From: a virus | Length of the DNA: 27,471 nt | IMG/VR virus record: IMGVR_UViG_3300027969_000359 | Coordinates: 1-27,471 of that record | Reading direction: 5' to 3' (one strand) | Shown: positions 2,780-13,997 of the stretch, piece by piece | Layout of the letters: each line of letters starts with the position of its first letter | How positions within the stretch are numbered: position 1 is the stretch's first letter | Notes under the pieces: model-generated | Told to the model about the DNA's origin: nothing | The model's input: the letters and a program-made list of their open reading frames with translations, nothing else | Databases searched by the model: none | Position numbers and translations under genes: made by a program

Positions 2780-3274
2780 ATGCCAACTTATGTTAGAAGT
2801 TCTGGTCAATGGTTGCCTGTATCTGGATCTAATGTTACAGGTACGGTTTTTCCTTCTGGAACTTTGATGTTGTTTCAACAAACATCAGCACCAACTGGAT
2901 GGACAAAACAAACTACACATAATGATAAAACATTAAGAGTTGTATCAGGATCTGCAAGTTTTGGTGGTTCTACTGCTTTTACTAGTGTCTTTACTTCTAG
3001 AACTCCTGCAGGTACTGTTGCTAATACTACACTTTCAGCATCTCAACTGGGCAATCACACTCACTATTATGTTGCTCCATCATCATATAATATAAAAGGA
3101 TATTATAGCTCAAGTTATAAATCCGGAGATGGGATAGTAATTCCTTCTGGAGTTGGTGCTAATACTGGAGGAATTGATCAAGGTTCTGGTAGTGCTCACA
3201 ATCACGGATTTACTGCGACTGCAATGGATTTTGCCGTTCAATATGTAGATTTGATTATTGCATCCAAAACCTAA
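2780..3274 (+). CDS. Tail-collar-like short fibre / receptor-binding protein
   Basis: A 164-residue protein whose pattern fits phage tail-collar and short tail fibre tips. Near the N-terminus it has PSGTLMLFQQTSAPTGW, typical of the collar domain, then LRVVSG. The second half has LSASQLGNHTH (His93, His95) and SAHNHGF (His140, His142). Paired HxH motifs like these bind iron along the trimer axis in T4 long-fibre tips. The end, MDFAVQYVDLIIASK, is the usual last beta-strand of this family. It is much shorter than T4 gp12 (527 residues), so it may be only the tip and attach through a partner, possibly the fibre encoded just upstream. No clear Shine-Dalgarno precedes the ATG. The role in receptor contact is inferred. 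Confidence 0.8.
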   Translation: MPTYVRSSGQWLPVSGSNVTGTVFPSGTLMLFQQTSAPTGWTKQTTHNDKTLRVVSGSASFGGSTAFTSVFTSRTPAGTVANTTLSASQLGNHTHYYVAPSSYNIKGYYSSSYKSGDGIVIPSGVGANTGGIDQGSGSAHNHGFTATAMDFAVQYVDLIIASKT

Positions 3275-3286
3275 TTGTGCTATAAT
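3258..3286 (+). promoter_or_regulatory. Sigma70-type promoter with extended -10
   Basis: The -10 hexamer TATAAT (3281-3286) is a perfect match to consensus and is preceded by TGC, forming an extended -10 element. A partial -35, TTGCAT (3258-3263), sits exactly 17 bases upstream, inside the 3' end of the previous gene. Transcription would start near 3293, about 16 bases before the ATG at 3309. This is a host-RNA-polymerase type of promoter, unlike the CTAAATA boxes elsewhere in the window. Confidence 0.65.
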
Positions 3287-3308
3287 ATTCATATTATTAT
3301 CTTTAACT

Positions 3309-3653
3309 ATGACTAAAATGAAACCAGGGAATTTTTGCCCTTTAATCAAAAAAGATTGTGTAGGGATTAAGTGTTCTTGGTACACACAAATGCGAGGAAC
3401 CAATCCAAATACAGGAGAGCCAGTTGATGAGTGGTCTTGTGCAATTGCTTGGATGCCTGTGATGGCAGTGGAGATTGCACAAAAATCAAATCAAACTGGT
3501 GCTGCTGTAGAAAGTTTTAGAAATGAAGTTGTAAAAGGAAATCAACAAAACCAACAACTTTACATTCAATCATTACAGCAAGGAATTATTCCAACGCAAG
3601 TAACCCCATTAAATCCACTACTTAATATTTTAGAATCAGGAGAAGAACAATGA
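3309..3653 (+). CDS. Small cysteine-rich protein, unknown function
   Basis: A 114-residue protein of unknown function. I chose the ATG at 3309. An in-frame TTG at 3258 would overlap the upstream gene and place the promoter inside the coding region. The N-terminal third has four cysteines, FCPLIKKDC then KCSW and EWSC (Cys10, Cys17, Cys22, Cys44), spaced as if to bind zinc or an iron-sulfur cluster. Conserved-looking Trp residues and EWSCAIAWMP lie next to them. The C-terminal half is Gln/Asn-rich and probably helical (QNQQLYIQSLQQG). It is the first gene after a sigma70-type promoter and overlaps the next gene by ATGA, which suggests translational coupling. Metal binding is inferred from residue spacing only. 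Confidence 0.72.
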   Translation: MTKMKPGNFCPLIKKDCVGIKCSWYTQMRGTNPNTGEPVDEWSCAIAWMPVMAVEIAQKSNQTGAAVESFRNEVVKGNQQNQQLYIQSLQQGIIPTQVTPLNPLLNILESGEEQ

Positions 3654-3991
3654 GACTTACATATATTAAATCGGATAAAAGTATAGGAATTGATGGTGCA
3701 TTTTTAACCGTTGATAATTCATCTTTTGATCAGGAAGTTGATGCAATTCAATGGTATGAAACTTATGGCGAAATTGAATTTATTAATCGCCAGCAAAAAA
3801 ATAATGAATTTTTTGAAGATATTAATTATATTCAACCACTAATTGATTTGTGGAATATAGAAAAAGAAAAACAAGATCAATTAATTGCTGAACAGGAAAA
3901 ACAGGCACAACAAGATAAATTAAATTTACCAGATATTCAACTTGAAAATCAAAAACTTTTAGATAAAATAAATTCTGATATTTCTACTTAA
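3650..3991 (+). CDS. Hypothetical phage protein with C-terminal coiled coil
   Basis: A 113-residue protein not recognised with certainty. The N-terminal ~60 residues look like a small beta domain (RLTYIKSDKSIGIDG, then VDAIQWYETYGEIEF). This layout occurs in short proteins next to phage tail fibre genes, some of which act as fibre-assembly helpers. The rest is strongly charged and Gln-rich (IEKEKQDQLIAEQEKQAQQ), so a coiled coil is likely. Its ATG overlaps the stop of the Cys-rich gene, and its stop at 3991 is 1 base before the sulfotransferase ATG, so the three are almost certainly one transcript. It could be an assembly chaperone for a neighbouring fibre or an unrelated part of the enzyme island; the sequence does not decide. 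Confidence 0.7.
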   Translation: MRLTYIKSDKSIGIDGAFLTVDNSSFDQEVDAIQWYETYGEIEFINRQQKNNEFFEDINYIQPLIDLWNIEKEKQDQLIAEQEKQAQQDKLNLPDIQLENQKLLDKINSDIST

Positions 3992-3992
3992 T

Positions 3993-4601
3993 ATGGAAAA
4001 GAAATTATACATCTATATTCACATCCCAAAAACAGCAGGAATGTTCATTAAAAATTTGCTTAAAATTCACAATCAAACTTCAAAAATACACGACCCATTT
4101 ACTGATGTAACTGATTTTTCAATTCCGGTTAAAAATGCTCCTACAATTGAATTTGTTAAAAGGGCATTGCCTGCAGCAAATTCTGATCAAGTTGGATTTT
4201 TTGTAATTGTTAGAAATCCATATGATAGAGTTCATAGTTTATGGAAATGGTCCAGACAACACGGACAAGCAAATAATCCAGATTTTCCAGAAGTTCCAGA
4301 AACTTTTGAAGAGTTTGTAAAAAAATTTGGAAATGGTGATTATAAAAAATATCATTTTATGCAGTCGCAAGTTAATTATGTAAATGGAGAAGATGAAAGT
4401 AATATTAAATTATTTAAATTTGAAAATATGGAATTAGTGAAAGAATTTTTAGTAGAGTGTAATATTGGATGGAGTGATTATCAAATTAATGCCATTCCGG
4501 GTCCAAATTATAAAGATGTTTATACACCAGAAATGGTAGAAATTATAAAAACTTATTGTATGGATGAATTTGAAAGATTTGAATATTCTACTGAATTGTG
4601 A
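3993..4601 (+). CDS. Sulfotransferase family protein
   Basis: A 202-residue PAPS-dependent sulfotransferase of the Sulfotransfer_2-like type, which moves a sulfate group from PAPS to a sugar or protein hydroxyl. The 5'-phosphosulfate loop is HIPKTAG at residues 10-16, right at the N-terminus as in cytosolic or phage forms; no signal peptide or membrane segment is seen. The 3'-phosphate motif is RNPYDRVHS at residues 74-82. The end, MVEIIKTYCMDEFERFEYS, matches the usual C-terminal pattern of the family (acidic DFE-F-Y). Both cofactor motifs look intact, so activity is plausible. It is compact compared with eukaryotic members, so the acceptor-binding part is reduced. The stop overlaps the oxygenase start (GTGA). 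The substrate is unknown: host surface glycan, phage fibre or a metabolite are all possible. Confidence 0.85.
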   Translation: MEKKLYIYIHIPKTAGMFIKNLLKIHNQTSKIHDPFTDVTDFSIPVKNAPTIEFVKRALPAANSDQVGFFVIVRNPYDRVHSLWKWSRQHGQANNPDFPEVPETFEEFVKKFGNGDYKKYHFMQSQVNYVNGEDESNIKLFKFENMELVKEFLVECNIGWSDYQINAIPGPNYKDVYTPEMVEIIKTYCMDEFERFEYSTEL

Positions 4602-5149
4602 TTAAAATATTCAAAAATTTTATCACATTAGAAGAATGTAAGCAATTATCAAAAATTGCCTTAAATGGTATTGAAGAGGGGTGGATTAATTTGGGAGTTT
4701 CACGAGGAAATCATCAATATAAAAAAAGATTAACCAGTAGAATGCATATGGAGGATAAAAAATACCCCGAACTTGTAATTGATATTTCAAATAGAATTCG
4801 TGAATTTATGGGAATATCCCATAGACCATTAATTATGGGTCACGGTAGTGAAGGTGTAGTTGTCTCTGTAACTTATCCTGGAGGTGATGTTTACAGCCAT
4901 CGTGATCCAAAAGCAGAAAATGGTTGGACTACATATCGTTGCAATATAATGTCTCAAACAACAGAAGAAGGTGCAGAATTATATGTGGATGATGAGTTAG
5001 TTGATATTAATGCTGGAGATTTACACTGTTATTATGCTTCAGAACAAACTCATTATGTAACTGAAGTGAAAGGAGAAACTCCCAGAATACTTTGGATGTT
5101 TGGGGCTCATCGCCCTTATGAAGATTTTATAATGGATCATACCCCTTGA
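4598..5149 (+). CDS. 2-oxoglutarate/Fe(II)-dependent oxygenase
   Basis: A 183-residue 2OG-Fe(II) oxygenase of the prolyl-4-hydroxylase-like type, the kind often seen in T4-like cyanophages. The metal triad is readable: HRD (His101, Asp103) in YSHRDPK, and distal His152 in EQTHYV. Arg163 in TPRILWMFG is placed to bind 2-oxoglutarate. GAELYVDDELVDINAGDL is the typical strand-turn-strand between the HxD and the distal His. The start is GTG at 4598, overlapping the sulfotransferase stop by 4 bases, so the two enzymes are coupled. Expected chemistry is hydroxylation of a protein side chain or small molecule using O2 and 2OG; the substrate is unknown. Its last codons contain the -35 of the next promoter. 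Confidence 0.85.
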   Translation: MIKIFKNFITLEECKQLSKIALNGIEEGWINLGVSRGNHQYKKRLTSRMHMEDKKYPELVIDISNRIREFMGISHRPLIMGHGSEGVVVSVTYPGGDVYSHRDPKAENGWTTYRCNIMSQTTEEGAELYVDDELVDINAGDLHCYYASEQTHYVTEVKGETPRILWMFGAHRPYEDFIMDHTP

Positions 5150-5174
5150 CAGGATCCAAAATGTGTGCTAGAAT
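5146..5174 (+). promoter_or_regulatory. Near-consensus sigma70 promoter with extended -10
   Basis: A perfect -35 TTGACA (5146-5151), a 17-base spacer and TAGAAT (5169-5174) preceded by TGC form one of the best host-type promoters possible (one mismatch in twelve, plus extended -10). It overlaps the oxygenase stop codon. The predicted start near 5181 gives a leader of only about 9-18 bases before the next gene. The -10 region (TGTGCTAGAAT) closely resembles the one at 3276-3286 (TGTGCTATAAT). Confidence 0.75.
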
Positions 5175-5198
5175 GAAAAGGACCACTGTGTGCCCATA

Positions 5199-5372
5199 AT
5201 GCAAATTGACCGTGAGACCCTACAAGAACTTCGTGAGTTGCAAGAAGATATGTCCTCCCATTTTGTGAATAAGAACTTTCCACTTACAGGAGAAACTTAT
5301 TGGACCTGTGTAGAAACATTTGCACAAGCAAAACTTGCTGAACTTCGTGGGGAATTAGTTTATACCGATTGA
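5199..5372 (+). CDS. Small hypothetical protein (57 residues)
   Basis: A small protein of unknown function, 57 residues from the ATG at 5199 (60 if the in-frame GTG at 5190 is used). The GTG has AAAGGA 7 bases upstream (5177-5182), but a transcript starting near 5181 from the promoter at 5146 would lack most of that site, so I prefer the ATG. Sequence: an amphipathic, charged N-terminal helix (IDRETLQELRELQEDM), a GETYW turn and a second helix (FAQAKLAELRGEL). There is no membrane segment or cysteine pair. It stands alone between a strong sigma70-type promoter and the late promoter of the giant fibre gene, which suggests early expression and a role separate from the virion. A small regulator or host-interacting factor is possible but not shown. 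Confidence 0.62.
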   Translation: MQIDRETLQELRELQEDMSSHFVNKNFPLTGETYWTCVETFAQAKLAELRGELVYTD

Positions 5373-5391: not shown

Positions 5392-5398
5392 CTAAATA
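5392..5398 (+). promoter_or_regulatory. T4-type late promoter box CTAAATA
   Basis: CTAAATA lies 29 bases before the ATG at 5427. It is flanked by a 5-base inverted repeat (TGTCT / AGACA, 5389-5403). Probably drives the long structural operon that starts at 5427. Confidence 0.55.
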
Positions 5399-5426: not shown

Positions 5427-8400
5427 ATGCCACTCTCCAGGTTAGAAAATTTCCTAAAGAATGCTGAAGGTAACATTCTTTATGTTAATCCATCAGATTT
5501 TGATGCAACTGATAGTTATGAAAATAAGGGTAATAGTTTAGCCCGCCCATTTAAATCTATTCAAAGAGCACTAATAGAGGCAGCAAGATTTTCATATCAG
5601 TCAGGAAGAAATAACGATAGAATTGATAGAACAACCGTACTTGTATATCCTGGAACTCATTATATTGATAATCGTCCAGGATTTGCAATTGATACTACCG
5701 GAGCACTAAAGCAGAGAACTGGATCTGGTTCTGGAGTTTCTTGGGCAAGTGGTGTTACAATCAATGAACTTGGATCGGCATTTAATACAGATGTACTTGA
5801 CGCAAATAACGATTTATATAAATTAAACTCGGTAGATGGTGGTGTAATCATTCCTCGTGGTGTATCCATTATTGGTTATGATTTAAGAAAAACTAAAATT
5901 CGTCCATTATATGTTCCAGACCCACTAGACGATTATATTAACACTTCTTCTATTTTTAATGTAACTGGTACTTGCTATTTCAGTATCTTTACATTTTTAG
6001 ATGCAGATACTACAAAATTTTCTTATAAAAATTATAACAACACTACAAATTTCCCAAATTATTCTCACCACAAACTAACTGCATTTGCATATGCTGATGG
6101 TGTGAATAATGTAAAGATCAGCAACGTAGATAGTGGATTAACTGATCTGCAGATGTATTACCACAAACTTACTTTAGTTTATGGTAATAGTTCCGGAAGA
6201 CCAATTATAGATTATCCAGTTGGTCTTGATTTTGAACCAAGTGTAGATGAATATCGTATTGTTGGAAATCTAAACGCAAACAATCTTGGAATCACAAGTA
6301 TTCGTTCTGGTGATGGTGTAACCCCATCTTCATCTATTACTGTAACCACCAACGCAACTCACGGTCTTTTTGTTGATACTCCAATTTTAATGAAGGGTGT
6401 TGGTATTGATACCAGCATTTATAATGGTTCATTTGTCGTAAGTGGTATCGTAGGACTCACCACATTCACCTATACATCATTAGGATCTCCAACAAATCCA
6501 GTTCCAGATCCTGTTACTTATCTTCAAGATGCACAAGTTGTTATAGAAGCAGATAGCGTTTCTTCTGCTTCTCCTTATATCTTTAACTGTTCTATAAGAT
6601 CAGTTTATGGTATGAATGGTATACACGCTGATGGAAGCAAATCCACTGGTTTTAAATCAATGGTTGTGGCACAATTTACTGGGGTGTCACTACAGAAAGA
6701 TGATAATGCTTTTATTGATTATGATTCAACCAGCAAATCGTTTAAAGATAATAGTCAATCATCAAATTCCCCACTTCACACATATTCTGGTTCCATCTAC
6801 AAACCATCATACGAAAATAACCACGTAAAAGTATCAAATGGTGGTTTTATTCAGTGCGTATCTATCTTTGCGATTGGTTATGCTAGACAATTCTTAGCTG
6901 AAAGTGGTGGCGATATGTCCATTACCAACTCTAATAGTAACTTTGGTGCTGTAGCTCTTGAATCTGTTGGTTTCCGCAAAGAAGCATTTGATCGTGACAA
7001 TACTGGATACATTACTCATATTATTCCGCCAAGAGAAGTTATTACAAATGAAAATGAAGTTACTTGGTTATCATTAGATATTACAAAAACAATTTCAGCA
7101 GCAACAATCTCAAATCTATATCTTTATGGATATAACAGTTTAGATATTGCTCCACCGCATCAAGTTGATAGTTATCGTATTGGAGCAAAACAAAACGAAC
7201 TGTTAAATCTAACAGTAACTATTGGAACAGCACAAACAACTTATACTGCACCAGTCTTGATGCAGTCTCCTGGTGGTTCAGTATATTCCGCACAGAAAGT
7301 ATCTACTGTTGGTAGATCTGCTGGTATTAATAGCATTAGTAGTGATATTTTTACACTCACAGGTGCCCACAATTTTTATAATGGAGAAAAAGTAAGAGTA
7401 TTCAGCGATACTGCTGAAGCACCAAATAATGTAGAATTGAATAAAGTTTATTATATTTCTACAACTGGGTCTTCAAATCAAGTTAAACTTTCACCAACAT
7501 ATAGTGATGCAATTGCTGCAACACCAAGAACTATTAATGGAACCAATAATCTTGGAGGTATTCTTACTATTGTCAGTTCAGTAACTGACAAACAACCAGG
7601 AGATTTGGGGCATCCAATTCAATTTGATTCTACGAATTCAAATTGGTATATTATTTGTTCTAATTCCACTCAAGATAATACCATCTATAATGCAATTGTG
7701 GGATTGGGCACAACTGGATTAGGATTAGAATCTGGATCTACTTTCGTAAAAAGAAAATTAGATAATCGTTCATTAAATGAAAGAATTTATAAACTTCGTT
7801 ATGTAATTCCAAAAGAAGCAACAAATGCAAGACCACCAATTGCTGGTTACACTCTTCAAGAAAGTAGCACAACAACAATTGATAGTCCTGGAGTTTTGTC
7901 TGGAGATCTTTCTAATTCCATACAACTCAAAAATCCAAAAGTTATTACTGGAGCATCGTATTCTTCAAATGTAATTACCATTACAACTGAACTTCCACAC
8001 AATTTAAGTTCTGGTGACGGAATTAAGATACAAAATGTATTGAGTTCAAATAATCCAACTGGTTCAGCATCTTCAGTATTTAATGGTTCTTTCGCAATTG
8101 CATCAGTTCCAAGTAGCAAAACATTTACTATTTCTGGTATTGCTACTGATCCTGGTTCTTTTGCAAATATCACAAATCAAAGAACCACTTCACAACAAGT
8201 TGCAGCACTTCCAACTGTAATTAGAGAAAGATATTACGATACTTATTTCATCTATAGAATTGATGAAATAAAGAAATTTATTCCTGGTTCTTCAACAACA
8301 GGACAAGATGGTATCTATCATCTTACAGTAATGTCTTCGGGTGAATCACCAACACTTAAAAATGTTGGATATGGTATTAGTTATAAAAACTACAATCAAG

Positions 8401-11400
8401 ATGTTCGTAATCTTTATCCTCAATTGGATAGAGATAATTATAATGCAGATCCAAAGGCAACTACAACTTACGCAGATATTCAACCACTTGGAAAAGTCAC
8501 AACGGATGATAAGAGAAATTCAGTTACAAAGGAAGCTCTGGATTTATTTGTAAAAGAAAATACAATTGGTTTTGGTATTACTTATGCTGCTGTAACTGGA
8601 ACTGCTGTTACTTTCTATACAGATAGAGAACACAACCTGAATGCGATTTCTGCACTTTCATTAACTGCTACTGGTTCTGGTTATGGTTCAACAACTCTTT
8701 ATTCTGCTGCTTTGGTGGGTGGAACTGGAGCAGGAATTAATGCAACAGTTAAAGTTTCATTGTCTGGTGGAGTTCCAACAGATGTAAGTATTGTAGATGG
8801 TGGTAGTGCTTATGGTGTAGGAAATACAATGAGCATTGCGGGCGGAACAACACTCGCAACCGTACAAGTAACTTCTATCAATAATAATGTTGGTGATGCA
8901 ATTCAAATTGTTGGATTTGCAAGTGAAGGTTATAATGGTTTATTTAAAATTACAGCAATTCCTGGACCAAAACAATTTACAGTCTATAATGCAAATAATG
9001 TTGGTGTTTATACATCTAGAACTGATGGCAAGTTGCCTTATGCTGCAATTACGGCAGAAGGTTCCACAATTTCAACTTTAAACTTTACAAATATTAGGAC
9101 TGGAATTGCAACAGTTACTACATCTACATCTCACGGATTGCTTGTTGGTAATAAATTTACAATTGTTGGTACAGGAAAGGCAATCTATGATAGTTCATTT
9201 GTAGTTAAGAATGTAGTTGGTCTTACTACATTTACATTTAATGTTGGTGTCGTAACTGCAACTCAACCGTATGTGAGTGGTGGTACAGTCTTAAAACAAG
9301 GTATTGGAGTAAATGCTCTTCCAATTGGAGATGGGGAGAGCAATCTTGGTGGTCGTGCATCTTACATTTATGGTGGAATTTCTGTAACACTTGGAAGTTC
9401 TTTATCTCCTTCTGCAACTACAATTAATCTCTCAAGTCCAAATGGATTCAAAAAGGGCGATTTCATCCAAATTAATTCAGAAATTCTTCGTATCTTAAAT
9501 GATACTTGCACATCTGTAATTCGCGGACAATTTGGTACAATTTCAGCAGCAGCAGATAGCGGAACCCTTGTTAAGAAAATTCGTATCATTCCAATTCAAT
9601 TCCATCGTCCATCATATCTTCGTGCTTCTGGGCACACATTTGAATATGTTGGATACGGTCCTGGCAACTATTCAACTGGTCTTCCACAAAAGCAAACTAA
9701 AATTCTAAGTTCCGATGAAGTAATTGTTTCCCAAGCAAAAGAACAAGATGGGGGAACAATCGTTTATTCTGGTATGAATGATTTGGGTGAGTTTTATTCT
9801 GGTTCAAAGAAATTAACTTCCATCACTGGAGAAGAAGAACTCTTTGATGCTCCAATATTTACTTATACTGGGGATGATGCGAATACAGATTTAACCAAGA
9901 GATTGAGTGGATATTATGATGATATTGTAGTAAAAGAAAGAATTACGGTTGAAGGCGGCGAAAATAATAACCAAACTTCACAATTCTATGGTCCTGTAAA
10001 TTTCACACAGAAAATTACAAATACATCAGATAATGGAATTGAAACTAAAAACTTATATGTTAAAGGAACTTCTTCTCAATCAAAACTAATTACAGTTGGA
10101 ATTTCTACTCCAACTTCTGCAGTAATTTCTGGTGCTCGTTCTGGTGATATTTCTCTAATTTCCAGTCCAGTATCTGGTGGATATGTAGGTCACGTTTATG
10201 CTGATAGTGACTGGAAGAGATTTGGAATGATTAGTGTTGAGAAGGACTTGGATGTTCTTCGTTTAGATAGACTTGGAATTGGTCAAACAAACGCAACATT
10301 CCCATTCACAAATGAATTGGAAGTAAATGGAACTGCAAGATTCAAAAATCTTTATGTAACTGAATCAGTAACATTTGTTACACCTCAAACATTTAGTAGT
10401 GTTGCTTTTGAAGGAATCACAATTTATAATGGTGCAGTTTTCCCAGGAACAAATTCAGTTGGGGCAATCACAACTGCTTATACACAGAAACATACACAAG
10501 GCATTTCGCAACTTTATAATTTAGAAGTTACTGGTACTGGTGTTACTTTCTCTAATACTGCAAATATTAACGTTGGTAGTTCTTTCAATTCAACATATGC
10601 TGGTGTTTCTACATTTGCTGGAAAATTAAATGTAAGTTCTTCTACTATTAGTGCTCTTGCTGGTACTGCTGTAACTTATACTAGTGGTAACATCACTACA
10701 TTGACTGGCACTTATGCTTATCAAAATGTTGGCATAATTACAGCACTTGCTGGTACTGCTGTGACTTATACTAGTGGCAATATCACTACATTAAGTGGTA
10801 CTTATGCTTATCAAAATGTAGGAATTATTACAGCACTTGCTGGTACTGCTGTTACTTATACAAATGCTACAATTACCAATTTAAATAATACTGGAATTAG
10901 TACAGTTAGTACTTCTGGTATTGATTTTAAAGGAACTTCTGGATTTACTAAATTAGTAGCATCATCAACTGCAAGTGGAACTCTCACATTACCAGCAGCA
11001 ACAGATACACTAGTTGGTAAAAATACTTCTGATGCCTTAACTAATAAAACAATTGCTGCTGGTTCAAATACTATTACTGGATTGACAAATACCAATCTTT
11101 CTGGTTCTGCTGCAATTTCAAATGCAAATCTAGCAAATAGCACGATTTCTGGTGTTGCTCTTGGAAGTAACCTTGGGGATTTGACTCTCAATACCCATTT
11201 AAGTTATACAAGTGGTTCCACTTATAATGGAAGTATAGCAAGAGTACTTAATGTTGATGCAAAATCAACTTGGACTCTTGGTGACAATAGCGCAAGTATT
11301 GTTTCTAGAGATGTAAATGGTGATTTTGCTGCCCGTGATATTACAAGTAGAATTATTACTTCAAATATTGCAACAGGAACTGCACCATTTGTAGTGTCTT

Positions 11401-12176
11401 CCACTACACAAGTTAGCAATTTAAATGCTTCTTCTCTGCAAAGTTATCAGCCCGTAAGTACAAACACAGCAAGCAGTATTGTGCTTCGTGATGGTTCTGG
11501 TAACTTTAGTGCTGGTACAATTAGTGCTACCAATTTAAATGGAACTCTTCAGTATAGTGTTTCTACTGGAACTTACTTGTCTGGATCATTTAATAACTCT
11601 GCATCTGCAACTATTACAATAAATGCTACAAGTGCAAATACTGCATCTACAGTAGTTGCTCGTGATGCTTCAGGTAACTTTAGTGCTGGAACTATTACTG
11701 CAACTTTAACTGGTACGGCAAGTGCTCTTGTAACTGGAAATAATTATCAAGTTAATTCCTTCGGTGTTGGAACTGCTGCTTCGGGTACTGCTGGTGAAAT
11801 TCGTGCAACAAATGATATTACCGCATTCTATTCTGATTTGAGACTGAAAGAAAATATCAGTCCAATTGCAAATGCTCTTAATAAAGTATGTTCTCTTCGT
11901 GGAGTTACATATAATGCAAATGATGTTGCTGCTTCTTTTGGTTATACAAGAGAAGAACAAGTTGGTGTCATCGCACAAGAAGTAGAAAAAGTACTTCCAC
12001 AAGTTGTGAAAGCAGCACCATTTGATATTGATGTGGATGATGACGGAAATGAATATTCCAGAAGTGGTGAAAATTACAAGACTGTTAAATATGAAAAAAT
12101 TGTACCACTTCTAATTGAAGCAATCAAAGAACTTTCGGAAAAAGTAAGGAGGTTAGAAAATGACCCTACCAAGTAG
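5427..12176 (+). CDS. Giant virion structural / tail fibre protein with S74 chaperone
   Basis: A 2249-residue structural protein. Residues 1-~90 (MPLSRLENFLKNAEG, then LYVNPSDFDATDSYENKG and LVYPGTHY) start a pectin-lyase-like beta-helix that continues to about residue 560 (ITNSNSNFGAVALESVGF). Next come several copies of a beta module with a 'HGL/HNL ... yNGsF.V ... FTY' pattern (about residues 305-350, 850-910 and 1230-1290), a GSGYGSTT-type module near 1085, and an ASGHTFEYVG segment near 1400 that recurs in the gene at 14299. The last third is fibre shaft: 30-residue repeats at 1743-1818, then DTLVGKNTSDALTNKTI and NLSGSAAISNANL. The end is a peptidase S74 domain: SDLRLK (Ser2136, Lys2141), GVIAQE and a coiled coil. 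Self-cleavage would release about 114 residues. No good Shine-Dalgarno precedes the ATG. Confidence 0.88.
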   Translation: MPLSRLENFLKNAEGNILYVNPSDFDATDSYENKGNSLARPFKSIQRALIEAARFSYQSGRNNDRIDRTTVLVYPGTHYIDNRPGFAIDTTGALKQRTGSGSGVSWASGVTINELGSAFNTDVLDANNDLYKLNSVDGGVIIPRGVSIIGYDLRKTKIRPLYVPDPLDDYINTSSIFNVTGTCYFSIFTFLDADTTKFSYKNYNNTTNFPNYSHHKLTAFAYADGVNNVKISNVDSGLTDLQMYYHKLTLVYGNSSGRPIIDYPVGLDFEPSVDEYRIVGNLNANNLGITSIRSGDGVTPSSSITVTTNATHGLFVDTPILMKGVGIDTSIYNGSFVVSGIVGLTTFTYTSLGSPTNPVPDPVTYLQDAQVVIEADSVSSASPYIFNCSIRSVYGMNGIHADGSKSTGFKSMVVAQFTGVSLQKDDNAFIDYDSTSKSFKDNSQSSNSPLHTYSGSIYKPSYENNHVKVSNGGFIQCVSIFAIGYARQFLAESGGDMSITNSNSNFGAVALESVGFRKEAFDRDNTGYITHIIPPREVITNENEVTWLSLDITKTISAATISNLYLYGYNSLDIAPPHQVDSYRIGAKQNELLNLTVTIGTAQTTYTAPVLMQSPGGSVYSAQKVSTVGRSAGINSISSDIFTLTGAHNFYNGEKVRVFSDTAEAPNNVELNKVYYISTTGSSNQVKLSPTYSDAIAATPRTINGTNNLGGILTIVSSVTDKQPGDLGHPIQFDSTNSNWYIICSNSTQDNTIYNAIVGLGTTGLGLESGSTFVKRKLDNRSLNERIYKLRYVIPKEATNARPPIAGYTLQESSTTTIDSPGVLSGDLSNSIQLKNPKVITGASYSSNVITITTELPHNLSSGDGIKIQNVLSSNNPTGSASSVFNGSFAIASVPSSKTFTISGIATDPGSFANITNQRTTSQQVAALPTVIRERYYDTYFIYRIDEIKKFIPGSSTTGQDGIYHLTVMSSGESPTLKNVGYGISYKNYNQDVRNLYPQLDRDNYNADPKATTTYADIQPLGKVTTDDKRNSVTKEALDLFVKENTIGFGITYAAVTGTAVTFYTDREHNLNAISALSLTATGSGYGSTTLYSAALVGGTGAGINATVKVSLSGGVPTDVSIVDGGSAYGVGNTMSIAGGTTLATVQVTSINNNVGDAIQIVGFASEGYNGLFKITAIPGPKQFTVYNANNVGVYTSRTDGKLPYAAITAEGSTISTLNFTNIRTGIATVTTSTSHGLLVGNKFTIVGTGKAIYDSSFVVKNVVGLTTFTFNVGVVTATQPYVSGGTVLKQGIGVNALPIGDGESNLGGRASYIYGGISVTLGSSLSPSATTINLSSPNGFKKGDFIQINSEILRILNDTCTSVIRGQFGTISAAADSGTLVKKIRIIPIQFHRPSYLRASGHTFEYVGYGPGNYSTGLPQKQTKILSSDEVIVSQAKEQDGGTIVYSGMNDLGEFYSGSKKLTSITGEEELFDAPIFTYTGDDANTDLTKRLSGYYDDIVVKERITVEGGENNNQTSQFYGPVNFTQKITNTSDNGIETKNLYVKGTSSQSKLITVGISTPTSAVISGARSGDISLISSPVSGGYVGHVYADSDWKRFGMISVEKDLDVLRLDRLGIGQTNATFPFTNELEVNGTARFKNLYVTESVTFVTPQTFSSVAFEGITIYNGAVFPGTNSVGAITTAYTQKHTQGISQLYNLEVTGTGVTFSNTANINVGSSFNSTYAGVSTFAGKLNVSSSTISALAGTAVTYTSGNITTLTGTYAYQNVGIITALAGTAVTYTSGNITTLSGTYAYQNVGIITALAGTAVTYTNATITNLNNTGISTVSTSGIDFKGTSGFTKLVASSTASGTLTLPAATDTLVGKNTSDALTNKTIAAGSNTITGLTNTNLSGSAAISNANLANSTISGVALGSNLGDLTLNTHLSYTSGSTYNGSIARVLNVDAKSTWTLGDNSASIVSRDVNGDFAARDITSRIITSNIATGTAPFVVSSTTQVSNLNASSLQSYQPVSTNTASSIVLRDGSGNFSAGTISATNLNGTLQYSVSTGTYLSGSFNNSASATITINATSANTASTVVARDASGNFSAGTITATLTGTASALVTGNNYQVNSFGVGTAASGTAGEIRATNDITAFYSDLRLKENISPIANALNKVCSLRGVTYNANDVAASFGYTREEQVGVIAQEVEKVLPQVVKAAPFDIDVDDDGNEYSRSGENYKTVKYEKIVPLLIEAIKELSEKVRRLENDPTK
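10653..10880 (+). repeat. 90-bp tandem coding repeat
   Basis: A 30-codon unit (ALAGTAVTYTSGNITTL, then GTYAYQNVGIIT) begins at 10653, 10743 and 10833, exactly 90 bases apart. The first two copies are full and differ at only a few bases; the third diverges after about 16 codons. Being a multiple of three, copy changes keep the fibre frame. Confidence 0.85.
12146..12152 (+). promoter_or_regulatory. Full Shine-Dalgarno AAGGAGG
   Basis: A perfect AAGGAGG lies 7 bases before the ATG at 12160, inside the last codons of the upstream gene. It fixes the start of the glycine-rich gene. Several neighbouring structural genes have no visible site, so this one stands out. Confidence 0.8.
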
Positions 12177-13400: not shown

Positions 13401-13997
13401 ATGAAAGTTTTTAGAGATAGAGACAATAGACTCATTTTGACATATTGGGAAATGAATAAAAATGAAGAATTTTATACCTGTGATTTATCTACTATTCCAA
13501 AAGGAGAAGATGGAAAAATAGAAGATTATGGATGCACTTTTACCACTAGTGGCAAATTTACATATCAAGAATCTGGAAGTGATGTTATAGAAACTTCAAT
13601 AACTGGGGAAGCAAATAATAGAAGACCACAAAAATCAGTTAAGATGATAATGCTTGAAGATAATACTAAATTTTGCTATTGTTTGGGTTTTGATGCATTG
13701 TTGACCACAAATACTTGCTCCGGTCAAGGAGATATGATGAATTCATCAGCAAGAAAATTAATTGGTGAAAGTATTTTTGTTTCTTCTGGAATATTTTTAG
13801 ATATTCAGGATACAGAAAAAGATTTTTATATTACAAATCCACTTTTAAACTCAGAACCAAATACTATATCATACAAAAAAGAAAATTCAAATGATTTTAT
13901 TAATTTGGAATTTGGTAAATATTTAAAAATTATATCCGGAGAAACTATCACATTAAAATCAACACTTGACATTCACATTCCAAAAGTGTATTATTAA
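13401..13997 (+). CDS. Hypothetical protein, last gene of the adhesin cluster
   Basis: A 198-residue protein with no recognised family. The N-terminal part looks like beta strands (MKVFRDRDNRLILTYWEM). The middle has a Cys-containing stretch (KFCYCLGFDALL, TTNTCSGQGD). The end is again beta-rich (LEFGKYLKIISGETITLKS), which could be a cupin-like or jelly-roll sandwich; I cannot confirm this. It has no signal peptide or membrane helix. It starts 6 bases after the previous gene without a clear ribosome binding site, so it probably depends on upstream translation. It is followed by a new late promoter at 14004, so it closes the transcription unit that starts at 5392. A structural or assembly role is a guess from location. 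Confidence 0.68.
   Translation: MKVFRDRDNRLILTYWEMNKNEEFYTCDLSTIPKGEDGKIEDYGCTFTTSGKFTYQESGSDVIETSITGEANNRRPQKSVKMIMLEDNTKFCYCLGFDALLTTNTCSGQGDMMNSSARKLIGESIFVSSGIFLDIQDTEKDFYITNPLLNSEPNTISYKKENSNDFINLEFGKYLKIISGETITLKSTLDIHIPKVYY

Follow-up and report, generated by a model that had tools for sequence, protein, structure and literature searches.

Gene cargo and promoters between two fibre genes of a T4-like cyanophage

Why should a T4-like phage carry a sulfotransferase, an oxygenase and three small proteins between two of its fibre genes, and when in infection would they be made? We addressed this question in the 27,471-bp virus record IMGVR_UViG_3300027969_000359 from IMG/VR (called the window here, and taken whole), which by its relatives is judged to come from a T4-like cyanophage; a near-identity search among isolates returned no close relative. 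The original prediction, made from the letters alone, had read the five genes as one early-expressed unit bordered by two sigma70-type promoters (TGTGC-TATAAT and TGTGC-TAGAAT). Comparison with about 350 loci from relatives leads us, on balance, to favour a modular cargo site between fibre genes, made up of a P3/P4 collar-fibre module, an enzyme pair (the sulfotransferase and a 2-oxoglutarate (2OG)/Fe(II) oxygenase) and a separate promoter with its small gene, ORF60, rather than a single-purpose operon; the timing of expression and the fibre or glycan substrates in this reading are what we infer.

ORF60 and its promoter

The top score of our promoter scan fell at 5146-5174 (TTGACA-17-TGC-TAGAAT; + strand, as are the other window features from the late box at 2747 to the giant fibre), where TAGAAT (5169-5174) is preceded by TGTGC and a perfect TTGACA lies 17 nucleotides (nt) upstream, giving 11 of 12 matches, a spacer of 17, TGn present and a predicted start near 5181. 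The gene that follows, ORF60 (5199-5372), is defined by its homologues and a predicted model, and encodes 57 amino acids (aa) from ATG 5199, with GTG 5190 also possible as a start. The -35 overlaps the stop codon of the oxygenase gene, so this promoter, downstream of the enzymes and between genes 4 and 5, cannot transcribe them and serves only ORF60. Of the two promoters said to border the block, then, the one at 3281 does lie ahead of P3, but the second lies inside.

Taken within the window alone, either site is mildly unlikely, an equal site occurring in about one in ten shuffles: at least 11 of 12 matches with TGn on the + strand were seen once against 0.095 per shuffle, and TGTGnTATAAT once against 0.13 expected (in 11% of shuffles). 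These figures are modest, and conservation across loci is what decides: it makes the promoter of ORF60 firm and speaks for the weaker box at 3281. On a 14-point scale with a threshold of at least 12, 34 of 58 distinct ORF60 upstream regions pass and 54 of the 58 carry TGn; among sites that score 11 or more, the -10 ends 22-32 nt ahead of the start codon, and a late box within 75 nt upstream was found in 0 of 58. For a subset of 29 distinct loci, 66% score at least 12/14, compared with 0.07% of shuffles.

We found relatives of ORF60 in 227 IMG/VR stretches. Among isolates, S-SCSM2R and B23 have one and S-CRM01 matches weakly; bacterial genomes have almost none, the single case being a Prochlorococcus single-cell contig. 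The protein is predicted to form two helices (model predicted local distance difference test score (pLDDT) 86.5); it matched no Pfam or PHROG family above noise, its model found no fold match in the PDB, and by these comparisons it appears to be a new phage protein family. The giant S74 tail fibre (5427-12176, 2249 aa; phrog_529, Pfam Peptidase_S74) is its constant right-hand neighbour, found 0.06-4 kb downstream of ORF60 in 50 of 58 loci; of the remaining eight contigs, seven break off within roughly 1.5 kb and the eighth is the single-cell contig. This fibre has a T4-type late box of its own (CTAAATA, 5392-5398) that is conserved in relatives, with TAAATA placed 34-42 nt before the fibre gene begins in 61 of the 61 loci listed. 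A putatively host-type gene and a late gene thus adjoin here, and each has kept a promoter of its own class. Across a 1.05-Mb set of regions around the giant fibre, strong host-type sites numbered 34 in sense and 7 in antisense orientation.

Cyanomyoviruses lack MotA and AsiA, and host sigma70 is thought to read their early genes, while a middle gene may have both kinds of promoter, early and late (PMC2984593). That host-type promoters mark early genes, as the original prediction assumed, finds partial support in the complete relative S-SCSM1: late boxes stand at 27 of 52 virion genes vs 20 of 223 others (p = 3e-11), and strong sigma70 sites lean towards non-virion genes (31 of 223 vs 2 of 52 virion genes) at p = 0.056. 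Early expression of ORF60 is strongly predicted from its promoter.

Two further observations concern this neighbourhood and promoter type. In one locus (L116) the giant fibre is separated from ORF60 by a homing endonuclease gene of the NUMOD3/HNH type (4066-4866), to the left of which is an additional CTAAATA box; a close relative has no such gene. Elsewhere in the window, TTGACA-17-TATTAT (13966-13994) is closely followed by a late box and an ORF of 61 aa (phrog_580); we considered it as a parallel case and rejected it as probably due to chance, relatives of that ORF having late boxes only, without the site.

Separately moving parts

On the left of the block, a T4-type late box (CTAAATA, 2747-2753) stands upstream of P2 (2780-3274, 164 aa), which we take for a collar-type short fibre from neighbours annotated as fibres; it appears to be the evolutionary partner of P3/P4, which its homologues adjoin in most loci. 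The block had been predicted to begin at 3258, but that TTG is upstream of the promoter, and P3 starts at ATG 3309 (3309-3653, 114 aa). P4 (3650-3991, 113 aa), by family comparison a short relative of tail assembly chaperones, is followed by the sulfotransferase (3993-4601, 202 aa) and the oxygenase (4598-5149, 183 aa). The five ORFs between P2 and the S74 fibre were as predicted, and so were the junctions of the first four (ATGA overlap at 3650-3653, a 1-base gap at 3992, GTGA overlap at 4598-4601). GC content is 0.28 across P4 to oxygenase vs 0.33-0.40 in the surroundings. The late boxes around the block also agreed with the prediction: one lies at 2747 and one at 5392, and no gene within the block has one at its start. 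No + strand terminator was found between 2747 and 5427, so late read-through from 2747 into the island is expected. The window contains no RNA families or transfer RNAs (tRNAs), and leader folding gave nothing unusual in structure.

Loci with nearly the same giant fibre show how the contents vary. In two of them (L024 and L116) the N-terminal 291 aa of the giant fibre are 99-100% identical to the window and the promoter and ORF60 are kept, but the cargo differs: the enzymes of the window are absent, and in their place are a chaperone with the Phage_tail_APC domain, different fibre genes and a 2OG oxygenase unrelated to that of the window (PF13759, 7e-11; domains scanned in L116, L024 having near-identical ORFs). 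DNA similarity between these loci and the window begins at ACCCCTTGACA, so the ORF60 promoter and gene move together; the cassette exchange point is just upstream of the ORF60 -35. In two further loci (L114 and L115), P4, the enzyme pair and ORF60 are all retained at 85-93% (92-93% identity for the enzymes), but P3 is another one (59%), directly adjoining P2 and lacking the box.

The unit reading of the original prediction, in which the five genes form one early operon gained or lost together, has in its favour the overlapping or abutting junctions and a gene order repeated in three close relatives (L112, L114 and L011). The comparison of related phages proposed with it nevertheless uncovered separately moving parts: ORF60 is served by a promoter of its own and is also found where the other genes are lacking, the P3 allele is exchanged in L114, L059 has the sulfotransferase without this oxygenase, and in L014 the order is P2-P4-sulfotransferase-oxygenase-P3. 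These loci already contradict it, and we regard it as very improbable. Among the relatives ORF60 is the constant element and the enzymes are the variable one, and the sulfotransferase and oxygenase travel as a pair, together with fibre modules or next to them.

Four cysteines are invariant in P3 (C10, C17, C22 and C44), and P3 and P4 also come after a fibre gene in the T7-like roseophage CRP-361. In the P4 family, PF16778 (Phage_tail_APC) was matched in 19 of 22 members; P4 resembles these chaperones through relatives that include CRP-361 gp41, a tail assembly chaperone, and differs from them in that the window protein has no such domain. It is a relative that has lost or replaced the C-terminal domain, and P3 and P4 together are accessories of the upstream collar-type fibre module. 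As a separate observation, the fibre/P3/P4 order is common to CRP-361 and T4-like cyanophages, which indicates a module that crosses phage families.

The sulfotransferase is assigned by Pfam, with a narrow pass of the cut-off of 22 bits (Sulfotransfer_2, 25.1; Sulfotransfer_1, 23.1), by phrog_3347, and by alignment, in which both motifs of the 3'-phosphoadenosine-5'-phosphosulfate (PAPS) type, IPKTAG and VRNPYDR, are present. In the oxygenase, the iron triad (H101, D103 and H152) and the downstream R163 for 2OG are invariant, even in a 26% identical S-SCSM1 protein, and the AlphaFold model has a prolyl-4-hydroxylase (P4H)-like fold (Foldseek top PDB match the Pseudomonas putida P4H, E 3e-6, probability 1.0); on this modelling and alignment we take it to be a P4H-like 2OG/Fe(II) dioxygenase. 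PDB sequence profiles gave nothing useful for P3, the oxygenase or the sulfotransferase. Among the next genes downstream of P3/P4 modules (n=32) are six 2OG-FeII_Oxy_3 oxygenases, one JmjC_2 protein and three sulfotransferases, and the same slot is filled by differing oxygenase families across loci. Cyanophages usually have 1-5 oxygenase copies per genome (PMC3037559), and by these counts such enzymes appear to follow fibre-chaperone modules more often than that number would give. The 229-kb genome of S-SCSM1 has 24 genes annotated as 2OG-Fe(II) oxygenase superfamily, several of which flank collar-type fibres. Elsewhere, in two loci (L048 and L063), genes adjoining P3/P4 encode long collagen-like (GXX) fibres, which are possible hydroxylase substrates there.

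The box at 3281 and the timing of the enzymes

An extended -10 box (TGTGC-TATAAT, the TATAAT at 3281-3286) lies between P2 and P3, with a predicted start near 3293. Both box sequences were thus present where the original prediction had them, with starts that agree; its claim that both are sigma70-type promoters stands as far as each is a conserved promoter-like element, and is weakened at 3281 by the -35 (TTGCAT, 3/6). Intergenic boxes with TGn precede P3 in 11 of 40 distinct loci vs about 1.3 expected, mostly 12-17 nt ahead of the start (22 nt in the window), and they are kept after differing preceding genes (P2, P4, sulfotransferase or oxygenase). We consider the box probably a promoter, weaker than that of ORF60. 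P3 genes on the opposite strand use a late box (S-B43; contigs, among them L003, L100 and L105). In L003 and L100-L106 P3 stands tail to tail with fibre genes, and a late box of its own precedes it in those loci whose upstream sequence was read.

The sequence of events that we favour for the modular cargo site would be as follows. ORF60 would be transcribed ahead of the late genes by unmodified host RNA polymerase, and the enzymes would be made late through read-through from the late promoter at 2747, with extra pre-late expression possible from the box at 3281. The oxygenase would most likely hydroxylate residues on fibre proteins or their glycans and the sulfotransferase sulphate hydroxyl groups on the same targets, and the two modifications would alter receptor binding; the enzymes would be swapped together with the fibre and chaperone that they serve. 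Modification of fibre proteins, their glycans or surface glycans is favoured because the enzymes recur after fibre-chaperone modules, with differing oxygenase families in the same slot, and action on the host instead is possible. Pre-late expression of the pair is likely in some phages. The example is the distant relative L012 (oxygenase 67% and sulfotransferase 27% identical to the window), in which a perfect TTGACA-17-TATAAT is followed by a 59-aa cysteine protein, the sulfotransferase, the oxygenase and a second perfect promoter at the oxygenase gene end. In the window phage pre-late expression of the enzymes is possible. No host-type promoter was found ahead of the enzymes in L114/L115, which keep both, so early expression of the enzymes is not obligatory; of the predicted early island, it is ORF60 that is strongly expected to be early. 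Beyond the enzyme pair, L012 (6542-7300) has a perfect promoter, a 68-aa ORF, a Phd-like 57-aa ORF and tRNA-like sequences, and then the giant fibre.

Several points weigh against parts of this account of the site. For the promoter at 3281, besides its poor -35, several loci have no box, and five more TGnTATAAT sites near P3 are P2 codons (DVIICSK; P-SSM2, L038, L088, L120 and L126). The model of the oxygenase reaches a moderate pLDDT of 72, and no curated 2OG family matches the protein directly (none of the 2OG families in Pfam with an E of 0.1 or lower), its assignment being based on fold and residues. Its nearest homologues (45-59% identity) are in contigs where few neighbouring genes were identified, the fibres of the window contain no collagen-like GXX runs as an obvious hydroxylase substrate, and the L012 pair has no fibre gene directly in front and fits early host action too.

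Part of this evidence would also be expected if the 3281 site were fortuitous, with TATAAT kept in an AT-rich gap by codon or spacing constraint and all four genes simply late. The 3/6 match of the -35, the frequency of the motif in shuffles, the P2 codons and the late boxes of opposite-strand P3 relatives fit that explanation; the excess of intergenic TGn boxes and their retention after unrelated upstream genes do not, and we think it improbable, if a serious contender. We hold a similarly doubtful view of moron-like cargo acting early on the host, with the enzymes modifying a host surface or protein, for example excluding other phages. The box ahead of P3 and the two perfect host-type promoters flanking the L012 pair fit it, and the top oxygenase structure match, P. 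putida P4H, was solved with EF-Tu, a host-type protein substrate. Host-type promoters also precede cargo within the structural region of S-SCSM1, e.g., nblA and a small-ORF/cpeT/2OG/tRNA block, and metabolic genes of P-HM2 peak in a middle, pre-late class (PMC5082946); per-gene timing for P-SSM2 was not found in the literature text searched. Against host action, both enzymes persist in L114/L115, where no host-type promoter was found before them, the pair repeatedly lies beside fibre genes, and no terminator was found that would part it from the late fibre transcript. More speculatively, and with less probability than either of these, ORF60 could be an early-made regulator or host-takeover peptide whose strong host-type promoter has become fixed in the late fibre region of many cyanophages, promoter and gene forming a constant boundary for exchanging cassettes of fibre, chaperone and modifying enzymes, so that receptor-binding modules bring their own hydroxylase and sulfotransferase.

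Known systems and significance

Prochlorococcus phage P-SSM2 (PSSM2_028 to PSSM2_033) has the same order of fibre, P3, P4-like gene, PiuC 2OG oxygenase, small ORF and giant fibre, but no sulfotransferase; its P3 abuts the fibre without its own intergenic box, and its small ORF did not come up among the ORF60 homologues. Hot spots of cargo in cyanomyoviruses have been described 'near gp5 with tRNAs' (Sullivan et al. 2010, PMC3037559) and share with this locus variable non-structural cargo at a fixed place; S-SCSM2R has gp5, a 2OG oxygenase, ORF60, tRNAs and cpcT ahead of the giant fibre. A promoter-ORF60 unit and a sulfotransferase-oxygenase pair were not found in the literature searched. Lambdoid morons are cargo genes with their own host-type promoter and terminator among late genes, in a prophage context. 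ORF60 resembles them as cargo with its own host-type promoter among late genes, and the locus has cargo that varies in close relatives and deviates in GC (ORF60 itself being constant), but the phage is T4-like and not a prophage, and no terminator of its own was found for ORF60, so we call it moron-like only. The oxygenase shares a predicted fold and HxD...H...R with P4H-like 2OG dioxygenases (P. putida P4H, PBCV-1 vCPH and Bacillus anthracis P4H) and differs from them in its low identity (15-17%) and in the lack of a collagen-like fibre in the window.

One paper called the function of phage sulfotransferases unclear (PMC10580990), and many cyanophage 2OG oxygenases and some sulfotransferases lack a known role; their repeated linkage to fibres and chaperones offers a testable case for fibre decoration. 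ORF60 provides, at the level of sequence, a clear case of a gene that is conserved and probably pre-late and sits within a late structural region, and would be useful for probing gene timing in cyanophages that lack MotA and AsiA. The locus points to a way in which phages trade fibre-modifying genes, some of which they may turn on ahead of fibre assembly.

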